Assembly (NCBI RefSeq): GCF_010537335.1
Contig: NZ_AP019711.1
Location: 558,001 to 622,000 of the forward strand
Reading direction: 5' to 3'
From: Amedibacterium intestinale
Lineage (GTDB): Bacteria > Bacillota_I > Bacilli_A > Erysipelotrichales > Erysipelotrichaceae
Length of the DNA: 64,000 nucleotides
Shown here: one piece after another, positions 50,896 to 62,327 of the stretch
Layout: every line of letters begins with the position of its first letter
How positions within the stretch are numbered: position 1 is the first letter of the stretch
Notes under the pieces: generated by a model
Seen by the model: only the letters and a program-made list of their open reading frames with translations
Told to the model about the DNA's origin: nothing
The model's database searches: none
Translations under genes and position numbers: made by a program

Positions 50896-51315
50896 ATGAA
50901 AAAATCAAATTTTATCACCATACTAATATTTGCACTGTTTATTGCAGGAAGTATCTTTGTAATGAACAAAGATTACAATAAAGAAGCTGTACATAAAGTT
51001 GTGAAAGAAAACTCTGTAGCGAAAGTTAAAAAACCTGTTTCAAAACCGCAAAAGAAAAAAGAAGAAAAGAAGCAGGACAAAGTGGAAGAGGATAAGAAAC
51101 AGGTTTCCAGTTTTTCTATGCAAAATACACTGTTTATTGGAGATTCCAGAACAGTAGGGTTAATGGAATATGGAAAAATGAAAGAACCAGATTTTTTCTG
51201 CAGTGTAGGTATGAGTGTTTTTAATATATATGATGATGCACTTAGTGTTCCTAAAGTAGGAAATGTAACCTTATCACAATTATTAACGAATAAAAAGTAT
51301 GATAAAATATACATT
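50896..51315 (+). pseudogene. SGNH/GDSL hydrolase, N-terminal half (interrupted)
   Basis: The first 140 codons of an SGNH acyltransferase/hydrolase: a membrane anchor (residues 5-23), a Lys/Glu-rich linker to about residue 75, then block I LFIGDSRTVGL with the catalytic Ser near residue 86. The frame then enters the IS1634 element and stops at 51333 after six foreign codons. The rest of the gene resumes at 53291. Intact, the protein would have about 267 residues and act on the outer face with the MBOAT partner. In this state it lacks blocks III and V and should be inactive. Confidence 0.85.
51245..51315 (+). repeat. 71-bp direct repeat, left copy
   Basis: Identical over 71 bases to 53291-53361, one copy on each side of the IS1634-family element. 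It encodes part of the SGNH hydrolase. A target duplication this long is a known trait of the IS1634 family. Confidence 0.95.
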
Positions 51316-51340
51316 CTCGTCTTTGACAGTTAGAAAGCGA

Positions 51341-51386
51341 AAAAAGTGCATTAAAGACTTTAGAATTAAGCTTTTTTGCACTTTTT
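51341..51386 (-). terminator. Terminator after the IS1634 transposase
   Basis: AAAAAGTGC and GCACTTTTT form a 9-bp stem with T/A runs on both sides; it lies 20 bases beyond the transposase stop and close to the left end of the element. On the plus strand it may also cut off transcripts of the interrupted operon. Confidence 0.7.
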
Positions 51387-51405
51387 GTCTTTGTAACGAA
51401 TTGTG

Positions 51406-53148
51406 CTATATATGATGTTCTTTTGTGTATTTGATAATATTTCTCATTGTGGATCGTTTTATTATTTCTCTGTCTGTTTCAAAACCAAACAACTCATGCA
51501 GTAAATCTGTTAAATCTGTTCGTGTGTAAGAAGGTATATATCCTAATCCTTCTTTTAATTTTGTTACGTTCATCTTTCTCAATGTATCTATTATTTGTTC
51601 AGATGTATATTTTTTCTCTAATTTATATTCTAATATTCGATATATCAGAAGGGACAAGAAACAAATCAGGAAATGCGCTTTGATCCTGTCTTCTCTTTGC
51701 AGATAGATTGGTCGTGCATCAAAATCCGTTTTCATTATTCTAAAGCACTCTTCGATCTGCCATCTGCGTTTGTTGATAGCGATGATCTCCGCTACATCAC
51801 CTTCCATATCTGTGCTTACCGCATAGAAACCATCATACATTGCTTCTTTATCTATAGCCTCCTGATCGATTTCGTAGATTTCTTCTTCTGCTACTTCTCC
51901 ATTCGCTGTGATGGAAGTCCTCTTTGTAAATCTGCTTGGATCATTCGGATTTTTTCTATTCTTTTTGATTTTTCCATTTTTACTTATCATGTTTTTTGCT
52001 CTGTCTATCTGCCCTTGTCTTATCTTTTCCTGATAAGCTTTATATTTTGGAGAATAGGTAACGATAAGAGTTTCCGATATCTTTTTAGATTCTATAGGTA
52101 CTTCTTTATAATAGATGGATTCATATACCTCTGGGTCATTTTCATCAAGATCTTTCAAATCAATGAATGTGCTGCTTCCTACTTTTCGATATTGTTTCGT
52201 ATTTAAAGCGATATCTCTATCTTCTTTCTTTAATTTTTTTAATGACTGTGTAATGACATAGGATCTTCCTCCTATATCATTGAACAGTTTGTTATTCTGT
52301 GATGCCAGTCCACTGTCTGAGCAGTAGATGAATTCGGAACAGTCGAAATCCTGAATAACTTTATGTTCTAATGGTTTCAAGGATTTCTGTTCGTTTTGAT
52401 TTCCGGGAAAGATATCAAAAGCTAAAGGGAAACCATCTCCATCCATGAATAACCCCATGCCTACGATAGGATTTGGACGATGTTCTTTGCTTTTTCCGTA
52501 TTTTTTAAGTTCATCTTCTTGTTCGATTTCAAAGTAATAGTTCGTACAGTCATAATAAAGAACTTTTGTGTTTCTTTTATGAAGAAAGTTAGAATTTCGA
52601 TAAACTTCCGCCTGTATGTAATCAGATTCCTCGGCCAATATAGATAAGGAACGATAGATATCCTGTAATTTATACTTTGGCTGTTCCAGCAGAGAATGAG
52701 CGAAAGAGAAAGAAGAGCGTTTACTGGAAGGATATAGAACACGAGCGTAGACAAGATCGCAGAGGATGCGATGGATATCATATTCGAATTTATGATGATT
52801 CTTAATATTACGACAAATATTGTCAAAATGAAGATTGGAACAGATGGATTGAAGGAATAGGTAGCCAACATTAAATAACAAAACTTCATTTTTTTTGATT
52901 TTTTTGTCGCTAGAGAAAGGTATGAGAACAGGTGCAGTATCCTGTTGATGGGATAAAGTGTCCTTTTTAGCTTCAGAACGAGCCCATTCCAATAATTTTT
53001 CTTCATTATTATCAAATTGAGGAAGCAGGTCATTTAATCGACCAAGCTTTCTAAAAATGCGACTAGAAGTTTTACCATTGTTTTTGCGATAAGAACTCAT
53101 AATATAAATGCTTTTGGAATTGCCAGTGCCATTGATTGCAACGTACAT
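51406..53148 (-). CDS. IS1634-family transposase
   Basis: A 580-residue DDE transposase of the IS4-like superfamily. The start MYVAINGTGNSKSIYIMSSY, the VLYYDCTNYYFEIEQ strand (first catalytic Asp near residue 200), the GMGLFMDGDGFPLAFDIFPG block, the CSDSGLASQNN strand (second Asp) and the late RWQIEECFRIMKTDF with the catalytic Glu match IS1634 transposases. The ATG at 53148 was chosen over ones 6 and 48 bases upstream because GGGTGAT is best spaced for it. The gene looks complete. A 10-bp tandem repeat (53176-53195) lies in its promoter region. Confidence 0.92.
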   Translation of the reverse strand: MYVAINGTGNSKSIYIMSSYRKNNGKTSSRIFRKLGRLNDLLPQFDNNEEKLLEWARSEAKKDTLSHQQDTAPVLIPFSSDKKIKKNEVLLFNVGYLFLQSICSNLHFDNICRNIKNHHKFEYDIHRILCDLVYARVLYPSSKRSSFSFAHSLLEQPKYKLQDIYRSLSILAEESDYIQAEVYRNSNFLHKRNTKVLYYDCTNYYFEIEQEDELKKYGKSKEHRPNPIVGMGLFMDGDGFPLAFDIFPGNQNEQKSLKPLEHKVIQDFDCSEFIYCSDSGLASQNNKLFNDIGGRSYVITQSLKKLKKEDRDIALNTKQYRKVGSSTFIDLKDLDENDPEVYESIYYKEVPIESKKISETLIVTYSPKYKAYQEKIRQGQIDRAKNMISKNGKIKKNRKNPNDPSRFTKRTSITANGEVAEEEIYEIDQEAIDKEAMYDGFYAVSTDMEGDVAEIIAINKRRWQIEECFRIMKTDFDARPIYLQREDRIKAHFLICFLSLLIYRILEYKLEKKYTSEQIIDTLRKMNVTKLKEGLGYIPSYTRTDLTDLLHELFGFETDREIIKRSTMRNIIKYTKEHHI

Positions 53149-53290
53149 ATTCATCACCCAATATAATAATAACACATATAGCACAATATAGCACATAATA
53201 GAACATAAAATTTGACAAAAAAAGTAAAAGAAAAGCGCCTGTTTAAAGCGCCATAGTAAATTTATGAAATTTTATATGTGTCAAACTCCC

Positions 53291-53361
53291 GTGTTCCTAA
53301 AGTAGGAAATGTAACCTTATCACAATTATTAACGAATAAAAAGTATGATAAAATATACATT
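53291..53361 (+). repeat. 71-bp direct repeat, right copy
   Basis: Identical to 51245-51315. Recombination between the copies would remove the IS element and one repeat, leaving the SGNH gene in frame. Confidence 0.95.
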
Positions 53362-57746: not shown

Positions 57747-58315
57747 ATATAGTATGGATGGGAATGCTTTTATTATCTTTTGCTGTAGCGTTATATCATG
57801 GGGATGTTGAAGTATTAAATCATGTGTTTATGGAAGTAGGAAAGGACACTTTTGATTTTGTGCTGCCATTGTTATGTGTAACTGCTTTTTGGAATGGTAT
57901 TTTGTATATTGCAAAGGATGCAGGTATTTTATTGTTTCTAGAAAAACTCATGCATCCCTTGTTAAGACGTTTATTCCCAGATATAAAAGAAGATCGTCAA
58001 ACACTAGGTTATATTGCCAGCAATGTGGTTGTGAATATGGTAGGACTTGGTTCGGCTGCTACACCTATGGGCTTAAAAGCAATGGAAGGTATGCAGAAGC
58101 ATAATCATGATAAAACAAAAGCTACACGATCTATGGTTACATTTCTTGTATTAAATACAGCAGGTGTAACCCTTTTATCAACGACACTACTTGCGATACG
58201 ATCAAATTTTCATTCTCAAAACCCTGCTTCCTTTATGCCTTATGCCATCATCGCCACCTGTTTTGCATCTTTTGCCGGTTTGTTGATGGATCGATGGAGA
58301 AACTATCATGAGTAA
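57743..58315 (+). CDS. spmA: Spore maturation protein SpmA
   Basis: SpmA is a membrane protein needed, with SpmB, for full dehydration of the spore core. The 190-residue protein has four to five hydrophobic segments and the nucleoside-recognition/Gate-domain pattern NVVVNMVGLGSAATPMGLKAME near residue 92, then MVTFLVLNTAGVTLL. It is coupled to dacB by an ATGA overlap and to spmB by an 8-base overlap, giving a sporulation operon with dacB. Confidence 0.94.
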   Translation: MNIVWMGMLLLSFAVALYHGDVEVLNHVFMEVGKDTFDFVLPLLCVTAFWNGILYIAKDAGILLFLEKLMHPLLRRLFPDIKEDRQTLGYIASNVVVNMVGLGSAATPMGLKAMEGMQKHNHDKTKATRSMVTFLVLNTAGVTLLSTTLLAIRSNFHSQNPASFMPYAIIATCFASFAGLLMDRWRNYHE

Positions 58316-58820
58316 GAGTATTTATATACTTCCTATCATCGTCATTGTTATCCTGCTTATTGCTTTTTTCAAAAGGATAAATGCATATCATTCATTTACA
58401 TGTGGAGTACAAGATGGAATTCGACTGTTTATTGAAATATATCCAGCTATGCTTGCTATGATGTTTGCGATTTCCATGCTGGAAGAAAGTGGACTAATGG
58501 ATATGGCAGGCAGCTTTTTTTCTAATCTAATTCCTTCAATTCCTAAAGATATATGGCCAATGATCTTCTTTCGGCCGATATCGGGAAATGCTTCTTTAGC
58601 AATACTTTCTCATATATTTGAAGAAAATGGTCCGGATTCTTTGGCAGGTATGATGGCAAGTATTTTACAGGGTTCTACAGATACTACATTTTATGTGATT
58701 ACCTTATATTATTCCAGTGTAGGAATTTCAAAAATAAAGAATTCTTTAAGCATTGGTTTGTTCGCAGATTTTGCAGGAATCAGCATGGCAATTTTACTGG
58801 CACTGTATTTCTTTAAATAA
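58308..58820 (+). CDS. spmB: Spore maturation protein SpmB
   Basis: The partner of SpmA, also with a Gate domain. The 170-residue membrane protein has IRLFIEIYPAMLAMMFAISML near residue 40, FFRPISGNASLAILSHIFEENGPDS near residue 88 and LQGSTDTTFYVITLYYSSVGI near residue 125. Its last 24 bases, including the stop codon, are repeated exactly at 61506-61529, downstream of the GGDEF/EAL gene, which shows that this spot received an insertion. Confidence 0.94.
   Translation: MSKSIYILPIIVIVILLIAFFKRINAYHSFTCGVQDGIRLFIEIYPAMLAMMFAISMLEESGLMDMAGSFFSNLIPSIPKDIWPMIFFRPISGNASLAILSHIFEENGPDSLAGMMASILQGSTDTTFYVITLYYSSVGISKIKNSLSIGLFADFAGISMAILLALYFFK
58797..58820 (+). repeat. 24-bp direct repeat, copy in spmB
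   Basis: The last eight codons of spmB, stop included. The same 24 bases occur at 61506-61529, so the 2.7 kb between them is bracketed by a direct repeat. Confidence 0.95.
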
Positions 58821-59017
58821 AAGCAATGAATTAATGATAAATGAATTGAATTAAAAATAGAAAGTGTTATATTTAAGTTGTAAAGAAATAATGATGTTTA
58901 ATAATTAAGTTTTTTATAATAAAGAACAATATCGACGAATAATGCAGCAAGTAAATCTTCCATTATACAATCAATTTGATTTTTAATTGATGATTAAAAA
59001 AGAATGGTGGCTAGAAT

Positions 59018-61246
59018 ATGAAAAAACACAAGAGAATTATTTTTTTGGTTATATTGAGTATTATGGGATTAGTTAATGCATTATTATTATTCAACAAATA
59101 TATTGATAACAAACTGGAATCCCAGCTCATGACTTCTTTGGAAAATTTATCACAACAAAACGTTGTTATTATAAACCACCAGATTGAGGATAAGTTTTCT
59201 TTGCTTCAAATGTTCACAAATGAGGTAGGGGATAAGAAAAACTATGATATTGTTCAAAATCATAAAAAAGTAGAGAAACTATCTCAAATTTTCGGCTTTC
59301 GATTGGTCGGTATTGCTTTGCCTGATGGAACCGCATATACAAGTTACAAAAAAGTCGTAGATGTTAGTCAGCGCAGGTATTTTCAAGAGAGTATGAAAGG
59401 TAAAAACTATGTAAGTGAACCATTAGATGATATTTATGATCCTAATGTAAAAATAAATGTATACAGTGTTCCCATCTATGATGAGTACAAAAATATAAAA
59501 GGTGTTTTTTTTACAACTTATAAGAATGAAGATTTTAAGAAATTTTTACGAATTTCATCTTATAATGGGAAAGGCTATTCTTATATTTTAGATTCAAAGG
59601 GAAATGTTATCTCAGATTCTCCACAGGCGCAGATTTATGGTACAAAAAATATGTTTAAAACGCTTGAAAAATATAGTGAAAATAAGGAAATTGTCAACCA
59701 AATGAAAAAAGACTTTCAAAATGGACAAGGAGGGGAGATCAGCTACAACTACAAAGGTTATAAATATGCCAATTATGCACCACTTAACATCAATGACTGG
59801 TGGTGTGTGACGATTGTTCCAAAAAATGTATTGGAACAACGAATTTTACCTATTAGTTATGGTGTTATCGCAATCTGTATAGCAATCTTTATAGTATCAT
59901 TAGGTGTGATTGCTTATATAGTATTAAAACAAAATAAATATCAAAGCCATTTAAAGAAAATTGCTTACTATGACAAATTAACTGAAATCCATAATAAAGC
60001 CTATCTTGAAGAGAAACTTACCCAAAATATAAATGCAAATACAGAGAAGAAGAGTGCTTTAGTTATTTACAATATACGCAAATTTAAAATGATTAATGAG
60101 ATATATGGTACTGGGGCAGGTGATTATATTCTAAAGAGTTTTGCGAATAGTCTAAAACAATATAAAACAAATGAATTAGAAATTGTTGTTCGTGGATATG
60201 GAGATGAATTTGCTGTATTATATTTCTATAATCATAAAGAAGAGCTGGAGAAAAGGATTCAATCAATATTGGCAATAAATAAACATATTCAATATTTAAG
60301 TTATCCGATTGATTTATCTTTTGCAGTTGGTATTTATGAAATAAAAAACATGAATTGTATGTTTGAACGAATATATAATTACGCCAGTATTGCGAAAAAT
60401 GAAAATAAAGAAAGACAAGATTTGTTCACTTACTATTGTGATGAGCTTGGCAATGAACAAATAACAATCAAACGAAAAGAAGATGCTATTAAAAAAGGAA
60501 TTGAGAATAAGGAATTTAAAGCATGGTTTCAACCTAAATTTGATGCAAAAAGCAAAAAAATTACAGGTATGGAAGCTTTAGCTCGATGGGAAAAAGAGGA
60601 TGGCAGCATATTATTACCAAATTATTTTATTTCATTAAGTGAGAAAATCCGATTAATACAAGATATTGATGAGCTGGTTTTTATTGATGTCTGTAAAAAA
60701 ATAAAACAATGGGAGCTGCAAGGATTGTCGATTTTACCAGTTTCAGTTAATTTATCACAAGCATATTTAAATGGATTAAGTGCATTGAATCATCTTAAAA
60801 AGATAATGGATGAATATGGTGTGTCGAGTGAATTCATTCAATTAGAAATTACTGAGAGCTACATGATAGATAATGAAGAGTCATTAAATTTGGCTGTTAC
60901 TAAGATGCATGAGTATGGCTTTAAAGTTTTATTAGATGATTTTGGTGTAGGATACTCTTCATTGATGTCAATACATTCATTAGATTTTGATATTCTTAAG
61001 ATTGATAAGAGTTTTGTTGATGCTATTGGAACTGCATCTGGAAATGCGATTATTCAGTATACGATTCAATTAGGGAAAAAATTGGATATGAAAATTGTTG
61101 TTGAGGGAGTAGAAACAAAAGAGCAATACGAATTCCTAAAAATATGTGGATGTGATGAAATACAAGGATATTATTTTGCAAAGCCACAAACATTTTATGA
61201 AATTAGTAAAATTTTGATGCTTAAAAAGGAAAACATTTCATATTGA
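59018..61246 (+). CDS. Membrane-bound GGDEF/EAL protein; likely c-di-GMP phosphodiesterase
   Basis: A 742-residue signalling protein. A first membrane segment (residues 8-26), an extracytoplasmic Cache-like sensor (about 30-280, with SQRRYFQESMKGKNYVSEP and a WWCVTIVP end), and a second segment (about 286-308) precede a GGDEF domain (about 320-480) and an EAL domain (about 490-740). The GGDEF motif is degenerate (GYGDEF, with Asn for the first Asp in VIYNIRKFKMINE), so cyclase activity is doubtful. The EAL domain keeps EAL, NLSQ, LEITES, LDDFG, DKSF and VEGVET, so it should hydrolyse c-di-GMP. It is inserted between spmB and rluB and is more AT-rich than both. Confidence 0.9.
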   Translation: MKKHKRIIFLVILSIMGLVNALLLFNKYIDNKLESQLMTSLENLSQQNVVIINHQIEDKFSLLQMFTNEVGDKKNYDIVQNHKKVEKLSQIFGFRLVGIALPDGTAYTSYKKVVDVSQRRYFQESMKGKNYVSEPLDDIYDPNVKINVYSVPIYDEYKNIKGVFFTTYKNEDFKKFLRISSYNGKGYSYILDSKGNVISDSPQAQIYGTKNMFKTLEKYSENKEIVNQMKKDFQNGQGGEISYNYKGYKYANYAPLNINDWWCVTIVPKNVLEQRILPISYGVIAICIAIFIVSLGVIAYIVLKQNKYQSHLKKIAYYDKLTEIHNKAYLEEKLTQNINANTEKKSALVIYNIRKFKMINEIYGTGAGDYILKSFANSLKQYKTNELEIVVRGYGDEFAVLYFYNHKEELEKRIQSILAINKHIQYLSYPIDLSFAVGIYEIKNMNCMFERIYNYASIAKNENKERQDLFTYYCDELGNEQITIKRKEDAIKKGIENKEFKAWFQPKFDAKSKKITGMEALARWEKEDGSILLPNYFISLSEKIRLIQDIDELVFIDVCKKIKQWELQGLSILPVSVNLSQAYLNGLSALNHLKKIMDEYGVSSEFIQLEITESYMIDNEESLNLAVTKMHEYGFKVLLDDFGVGYSSLMSIHSLDFDILKIDKSFVDAIGTASGNAIIQYTIQLGKKLDMKIVVEGVETKEQYEFLKICGCDEIQGYYFAKPQTFYEISKILMLKKENISY

Positions 61247-61589
61247 AAATGAACTCTATACAGAGTGAATAAAGGGTTAAGTTAAAAAATCCTATGAGGA
61301 AGAAAACATATTTTTGATAGATATTTTTGTGGATTTCTCAAGATATGAACTTGCCTACTGAAAAAAAGCATGGAAAATTCGTTCATTACTTCAAATAAAT
61401 AAGAGACTTTCAATTAGCTTAATTATACATATTCATTTTAAATTGGATTAAAAATTATTTTGTCAAGAATATAGATTTATTGAAAACTTTACCAAAAGTA
61501 AAAGGCTGGCACTGTATTTCTTTAAATAATGCTTGCAAAGTTATAGATTTCATGTAAAATAACGTACGAGATAACAGGATGGTGATCAT
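61247..61589 (+). other. Intergenic region between the GGDEF/EAL gene and rluB
   Basis: No gene, hairpin terminator or clear promoter was seen. The only marked feature is the 24-bp repeat of the spmB 3' end at 61506-61529. The sequence from there to rluB probably is the original spmB-rluB spacer, and the part before it came with the inserted gene. Confidence 0.5.
61506..61529 (+). repeat. 24-bp direct repeat, copy downstream of the GGDEF/EAL gene
   Basis: Exact copy of the last 24 bases of spmB (58797-58820), here not part of any gene. The upstream neighbouring bases differ between the copies, so the repeat is sharply bounded. Confidence 0.95.
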
Positions 61590-62327
61590 ATGGAAAGGTT
61601 ACAGAAAGTAATTGCACAGGCAGGAATTGCTTCTCGTCGTAAAGCAGAAGAGATGATTGCGGCAGGCAGGGTTCGTGTAAATGGTGAAATCGTAAGTGAA
61701 ATGGGATATAAGGTAAAACGTGGAGACTATATTGAAGTAGATGGTAATCCAATTGAAAAAGAAAACAAAGTATATTTTCTGATGAACAAGCCGAAGAAAA
61801 CAATGTGTACCAGCAACGATGAATTTGGCAGACAGACAGTTGTAGATCTGATTGATTGCAAAGAAAGAATTTTCACAGTAGGACGTTTGGATTATGATAC
61901 AAGTGGTTTGCTTCTGTTAACAAATGATGGAGAATTTGCGAATGAAATCATTCATCCCCGCTACCATATTCCAAAAGTATATAATTTAACGATCAACGGT
62001 ATTTTGACAGGAGAAGATAAAAAGAAAATCAAGGAAGGAATTGTTCTTGATGATGGTATCAAAACACTTCCTGCAAAATATAAAATGACAGAAATTGATA
62101 AAGAAAAAAATCAGTGCAGTTTAGATTTGACAATTTATGAAGGAAGAAATCGTCAAATTAAACGTATGATGGAATCTTTAGGGTATGAAGTGCGCCGTTT
62201 ACATCGCAAAGAGCTGGCTTTCTTAAAATGCAGTGACTTAAAACAGGGAGAATATCGAAAATTAAAACCATTTGAAGTACAGCAGTTAAGAAGTCTTTCA
62301 CAAAAAGGGGTACTAAAAAATAAATAA
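61590..62327 (+). CDS. rluB: 23S rRNA pseudouridine synthase RluB
   Basis: A 245-residue RluB/RsuA-type pseudouridine synthase. The N-terminal S4 RNA-binding domain (LQKVIAQAGIASRRKAEEMI) is followed by the synthase domain with VGRLDYDTSGLLLLTNDG near residue 105, whose Asp is catalytic, and the closing EGRNRQIKRMMESLGYEVRRLHR near residue 190. RluB modifies 23S rRNA position 2605 (E. coli numbering). Its place downstream of spmAB matches Bacillus. GGTGAT precedes the ATG; a terminator follows. Confidence 0.94.
   Translation: MERLQKVIAQAGIASRRKAEEMIAAGRVRVNGEIVSEMGYKVKRGDYIEVDGNPIEKENKVYFLMNKPKKTMCTSNDEFGRQTVVDLIDCKERIFTVGRLDYDTSGLLLLTNDGEFANEIIHPRYHIPKVYNLTINGILTGEDKKKIKEGIVLDDGIKTLPAKYKMTEIDKEKNQCSLDLTIYEGRNRQIKRMMESLGYEVRRLHRKELAFLKCSDLKQGEYRKLKPFEVQQLRSLSQKGVLKNK

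Follow-up and report, generated by a model that had tools for sequence, protein, structure and literature searches.

How did a single c-di-GMP signalling gene come to stand between spmB and rluB in Amedibacterium intestinale, bracketed by two exact copies of the end of spmB? The window, that is, the whole stretch of 64,000 nucleotides that was analysed (contig NZ_AP019711.1, positions 558,001 to 622,000, forward strand), holds the genes scpA-scpB-dacB-spmA-spmB in this order, followed, across the insert, by rluB. The order, which is as the original prediction had given it, was read from the open reading frames (ORFs), and Pfam matches at the locus (Peptidase_S11, two Gate proteins and an S4/PseudoU_synth_2 protein) agree with it for all genes except scpA and scpB, which were named by reading of the ORFs. 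The spmB gene (58308..58820, plus strand) encodes the Gate-domain spore maturation protein B and is intact, as judged from the ORF, its homologues and a PF07670 match of 29.1 bits, just below the cut-off of 29.6. The rluB gene (61590..62327, plus strand) was assigned from its ORF and its S4 and PseudoU_synth_2 domains.

The two copies of the 24-bp direct repeat, CTGGCACTGTATTTCTTTAAATAA, lie at 58797..58820 and 61506..61529 on the plus strand and are identical at 24 of 24 positions. The left copy consists of the last seven codons and the stop codon of spmB, in frame, bearing out the observation from which the original prediction started, namely that the last 24 bases of spmB recur exactly. When up to three mismatches were allowed, these were the only two sites in the whole genome (2,488,096 bases), and at the same tolerance no chance match was found in the window in 100 shuffles. 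The right copy, together with the bases that follow it, matches the ancestral spmB-rluB junction described below.

Exact direct repeats of this kind were surveyed in a 418-kb sample of the same genome (the window plus another 19 stretches, scanned one at a time, with repeats across their borders missed), where 10 repeats of at least 18 bp lay within 10 kb of each other. Six were spaced more than 1 kb apart. Insertion sequences account for three of these as target duplications, two at an IS1634-family element (71 and 90 bp) and one at an IS1182-family element (20 bp); one is the 24 bp at the end of spmB, another falls within a pair of neighbouring genes that, by reading, encode serine recombinases, and the sixth is a palindrome around a gene that reads as AAA-type. 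Among the remaining four, one resembles tandem tRNA copies, by reading. The duplication of 20 bp around the IS1182-family element (L163:10978-12666 of the same genome) is palindromic and terminator-like, and inverted ends that match each other lie next to it.

The junction was compared between genera of one family, with one genome per species. spmB was detected at an E-value of 1e-30 or better in 36 of 272 family genomes, the window's own included, and rluB was found on the same contig in all 36. The gap between the two genes was 32-268 bp in 33 of them, counting one (G253) whose spmB match is truncated, and it was large in three, at 2.8 kb in the window, 4.2 kb in G007 and 1.3 kb in G227. Note that gaps were computed for 30 loci, and those of the other six were taken from the match coordinates of spmB and rluB. 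When the window's flanks were joined over one repeat copy, they aligned with the empty junctions of two relatives, G015 and G045, and the element TCATGTAAAAT upstream of rluB was common to all three. A candidate sigma-70-like promoter of rluB (TTGCAA-16-TAAAAT, 61533..61560, plus strand) was picked up there by motif scan and by the conservation of TCATGTAAAAT in the junction alignment; such matches are equally frequent in shuffled sequence. Given the empty gaps and the alignment of the joined flanks, the segment is a lineage-specific, derived insertion, most simply explained by a gain on the branch that leads to the window's genome. The original prediction had regarded the gene as inserted, and the empty sites of the relatives agree with it. 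The counter-case that it had named, an ancient tandem duplication that has left the gene and the repeat in all relatives, is excluded for the genomes examined because the relatives have an empty gap. G001, a genome of the same genus rated 97% complete, had neither spmB nor rluB detectable at the thresholds used, and therefore could not serve as an empty-site control.

Other cargo was found at the same spot in two near relatives. The gap of G007 (L104:2923-7109) is occupied by an unrelated 4.2-kb insert with an ABC transporter gene and membrane-protein-like ORFs, along with a small secreted-looking protein without family match, which we take to resemble those of lactococcin-972 bacteriocin clusters. 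The gap of G227 (L105:2728-3983) holds an unrelated 1.3-kb insert with an Mbeg1-like gene (PF11187), seemingly split into two frames. The G007 insert showed no repeat of its spmB 3' end better than random. In G227, a partial repeat of the spmB end (15 of 17 bases) lies near the far side of the insert; one of 60 randomised targets was as good, indicating that this match is marginal and probably due to chance. With unrelated cargo and no convincing repeat in either relative, the junction is more readily seen as permissive than as an att site.

Between the repeat copies, the insert comprises 2,685 bp with a GC content of 28.0%. Genome windows of the same size averaged 34.4% with a standard deviation of 2.9% (736 windows from the 418-kb sample), and 0.8% of them were as low as the insert; such foreign-looking, low-GC DNA points to a horizontal origin. 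The left flank (58821..59017, plus strand) is AT-rich and, in Pfam frames and in comparison with tenA, has no recognisable gene remnant; Pfam scans covering two of its six frames, and eight of the twelve frames of both flanks, gave no match. It is followed by one intact gene of 742 codons (59018..61246, plus strand) for a dCache_1-GGDEF-EAL protein and by the decayed 3' end of a tenA gene (thiaminase II, TENA/THI-4 family) at about 61240..61386 on the plus strand. The AT-rich remainder (61387..61505, plus strand), i.e., the last 119 bp of the insert, resembled neither tenA nor the DNA that follows the intact copy of that gene. The original description of a single AT-rich gene with its flanks is therefore correct as to the low GC and the one intact gene, and needs amending in that a tenA remnant also lies inside, occupying part of a right side that had been called non-coding.

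The remnant contains in-frame stop codons and a 19-residue deletion. It matches the intact tenA of the same genome at 77% DNA identity over 75 bp (blastn, E 1.6e-7) and, as protein read through the stops, at an E-value of 1.2e-11 (tblastn), and the similarity scored above all 300 shuffles under both scorings. The right flank is homologous to TenA as a broken 3' fragment only. The 3' end of the GGDEF/EAL gene and the remnant meet or overlap slightly, and thus the insert came as, or became, a mosaic; the start of the remnant is uncertain by some tens of bases because the similarity may run into the last codons of the EAL gene. The left flank contained no tenA 5' part and no similarity to tenA above shuffles; a simple landing of the gene within a tenA that still has both its halves was therefore rejected. 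The intact tenA (G000:C1:752999-753646; PF03070) adjoins genes that read as thiD- and thiE-like from their ORFs, and few family genomes have an intact tenA (15 of the 266 examined). At the blastn level, DNA like the insert was absent from 50,697 phage and 72,556 plasmid records. Blastn lines at 53-64% identity over AT-rich stretches, other than those for GGDEF/EAL and tenA, were dropped as composition noise, and a sub-threshold Rfam tmRNA match inside the coding region was discarded.

We favour, with a probability of about 60%, the reading that some 2.7 kb of acquired mosaic DNA was inserted by illegitimate recombination at a permissive spmB-rluB junction. An acquired dCache-GGDEF-EAL gene together with a rotted tenA 3' end would have entered downstream of the spm genes and ahead of the rluB promoter. 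Most likely, the duplication of 24 bp would have been made in the joining itself, either by the filling in of a staggered break or by a short-homology or template-switch join, and it may have persisted because spmB needs one copy to be complete while the other maintains the sequence in front of rluB. This reading is supported by the exact repeat, the empty ancestral site, the low GC content, the tenA remnant and the other cargo in two relatives; the recombination route, the order of events and the reason why the duplication was kept are what we infer. Several points count against an illegitimate insertion. Typical microhomology is shorter and less tidy than a 24/24 repeat whose end coincides with the stop codon, and integrases leave just such perfect copies of a gene 3' end. 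In addition, the best relative of the gene is merely 39% identical and the donor was not found, and the partial repeat in G227 also weighs marginally on this side.

In E. coli, S. aureus and S. pyogenes, repeats that are mostly shorter than 30 bp flank 10-18% of the small variable segments studied (PMC2884548). The present insert is like the segments described there in that a few kb or less of DNA lies between conserved genes, is present or absent between these flanks (here spmB and rluB) with empty sites in relatives, carries a repeat below 30 bp, varies in content among relatives and has no recombinase. However, those segments were defined between strains of one species whereas ours is seen between genera, and the cargo here is a whole 742-aa gene. 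The insertion is ordinary in kind: real, derived and small. A literature search for spmB or rluB as an insertion or integration site returned nothing related, as judged by title. The interest of the locus lies in its clarity as an example: a lone signalling gene has entered a chromosome and left a fingerprint, i.e., the 24-bp duplication and the pseudogene tail, with no mobility gene beside it; if the route were solved, it would bear on the entry of single genes into bacterial genomes in the absence of mobile elements.

The main rival is an integrative element that has since been stripped, which we regard as unlikely though by no means far-fetched. A tyrosine or serine recombinase would have used the 24 bp as its core (attL and attR) at the spmB 3' end, and the recombinase and most of the cargo would later have been deleted, so that the GGDEF/EAL gene and a piece of tenA were all that remained. 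A perfect repeat of a gene 3' end including the stop codon, with one copy restoring spmB, is the classic footprint of such elements, and integrase-type islands at the 3' ends of protein genes likewise have a perfect repeat on the far side and a restored gene. The insert is also lineage-specific, and seven integrase matches elsewhere in the genome indicate that such elements do visit it. However, unlike those islands, the locus has no recombinase, recognisable remnant or second site, and its content is small and mosaic. The absence of a recombinase had already been remarked upon in the original prediction, and no integrase was found in the ORFs, and neither an integrase nor a remnant of one next to a repeat copy in the flank frames scanned. 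The genome holds no further copy of the 24 bp at up to three mismatches, beside an integrase or elsewhere, and the viral contigs hold no exact one. An integrase-bearing insert at spmB was found in none of the 36 family genomes, of which 33 are empty at this site, and the inserts of G007 and G227 show no integrase in their ORFs, which were listed and mostly scanned. Taken with the cargo of these two relatives, which is not convincingly bracketed, these results lend no support to the site-specific integration of which such repeats had originally been called the footprint.

Improbable as well is a long target-site duplication of the IS1634 kind, left either when such a transposase mobilised a non-autonomous unit or by a composite element that later lost its IS ends. 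Such transposition is at home in this genome, where long duplications flank all eight full-length IS1634-family copies (family by NCBIfam), including a copy that precedes the left repeat by about 5.4 kb. As reported in PMC2266710, IS1634 and IS1549 make repeats of 8-514 bp, and therefore 24 bp is within the range; long perfect direct repeats around inserts of about 2 kb are a likeness between those elements and the present one. In contrast to them, the insert has neither a transposase nor IS ends, and its repeat is shorter. Specifically, the IS1634-family end motifs are absent from the insert ends, which also differ from those of IS1182. No terminal inverted repeats were found, and the two ends, compared as inverted repeats, were alike at 13 of 30 positions, no more than random pairs (median 13). 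The 24-bp repeat is shorter than any of the eight duplications in the genome and lacks the ATTATA-like start seen at several of them. The missing ends largely refute the transposition route. The longest exact duplications at the eight copies measure 61, 71, 86, 88, 90, 144, 172 and 218 bp. The element within the window occupies 51316-53290, with its 71-bp duplications at 51245-51315 and 53291-53361, and the gene that it interrupts reads as an SGNH-type hydrolase. As of 2008, according to PMC2266710, no mechanism had been proposed for duplications of such variable length.

The original suggestion of a single-gene cassette, mobilised in trans by a recombinase from another locus, is very improbable: the repeat copies do bracket one intact gene with a short tail, but the unit is mosaic and carries the end of a pseudogene, unexpected content for a cassette, the genome has no second place with the same site, and 12 GGDEF/EAL loci (eleven in relatives plus one; one locus with less than 1 kb on one side) lacked flanking exact direct repeats above 13 bp. 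We give equally little credit to the wider notion in which a recombinase with the spmB 3' end as its target would have the 24 bp as its att site, the GGDEF/EAL gene would be the cargo of a minimal recombinase-less unit moved in trans, and the spmB-rluB gap, with three cargoes in three near relatives, a hotspot.

As for the gene itself, an active diguanylate cyclase has an intact GG(D/E)EF active-site loop, and the catalytic signature of EAL phosphodiesterases comprises the EAL motif, N, ITE, DDFG, K, EGVE and QGY. In an alignment with five homologues, all EAL positions checked were present in the 742-aa protein (GMEALARW, VNLS, ITES, DDFG, LKIDKS, EGVET and IQGYYF), and the GGDEF loop was degenerate and read RGYGDEF, with Y in place of the first G of the motif. 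The protein is therefore probably a c-di-GMP phosphodiesterase with a regulatory GGDEF domain. Its domain order is that of dCache-GGDEF-EAL phosphodiesterases, from which it differs in the GYGDEF loop and in an identity of at most 39% to any relative found. The best homologue, at 39%, is in G001; no relative above this identity was found in the order (315 genomes) and none in viral contigs; apart from the window's own, no homologue reached an E-value of 1e-110 in the 395 genomes of the class that were searched, and all phage and plasmid protein matches were below 60% identity. A search for literature joining GGDEF, EAL, horizontal gene transfer and Erysipelotrichaceae found none in the collection searched. 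As it stands, the insertion brings the genome one predicted phosphodiesterase, and only two other loci there matched the protein query. G001 had 13 matches to the GGDEF/EAL protein, compared with three in the window's genome.
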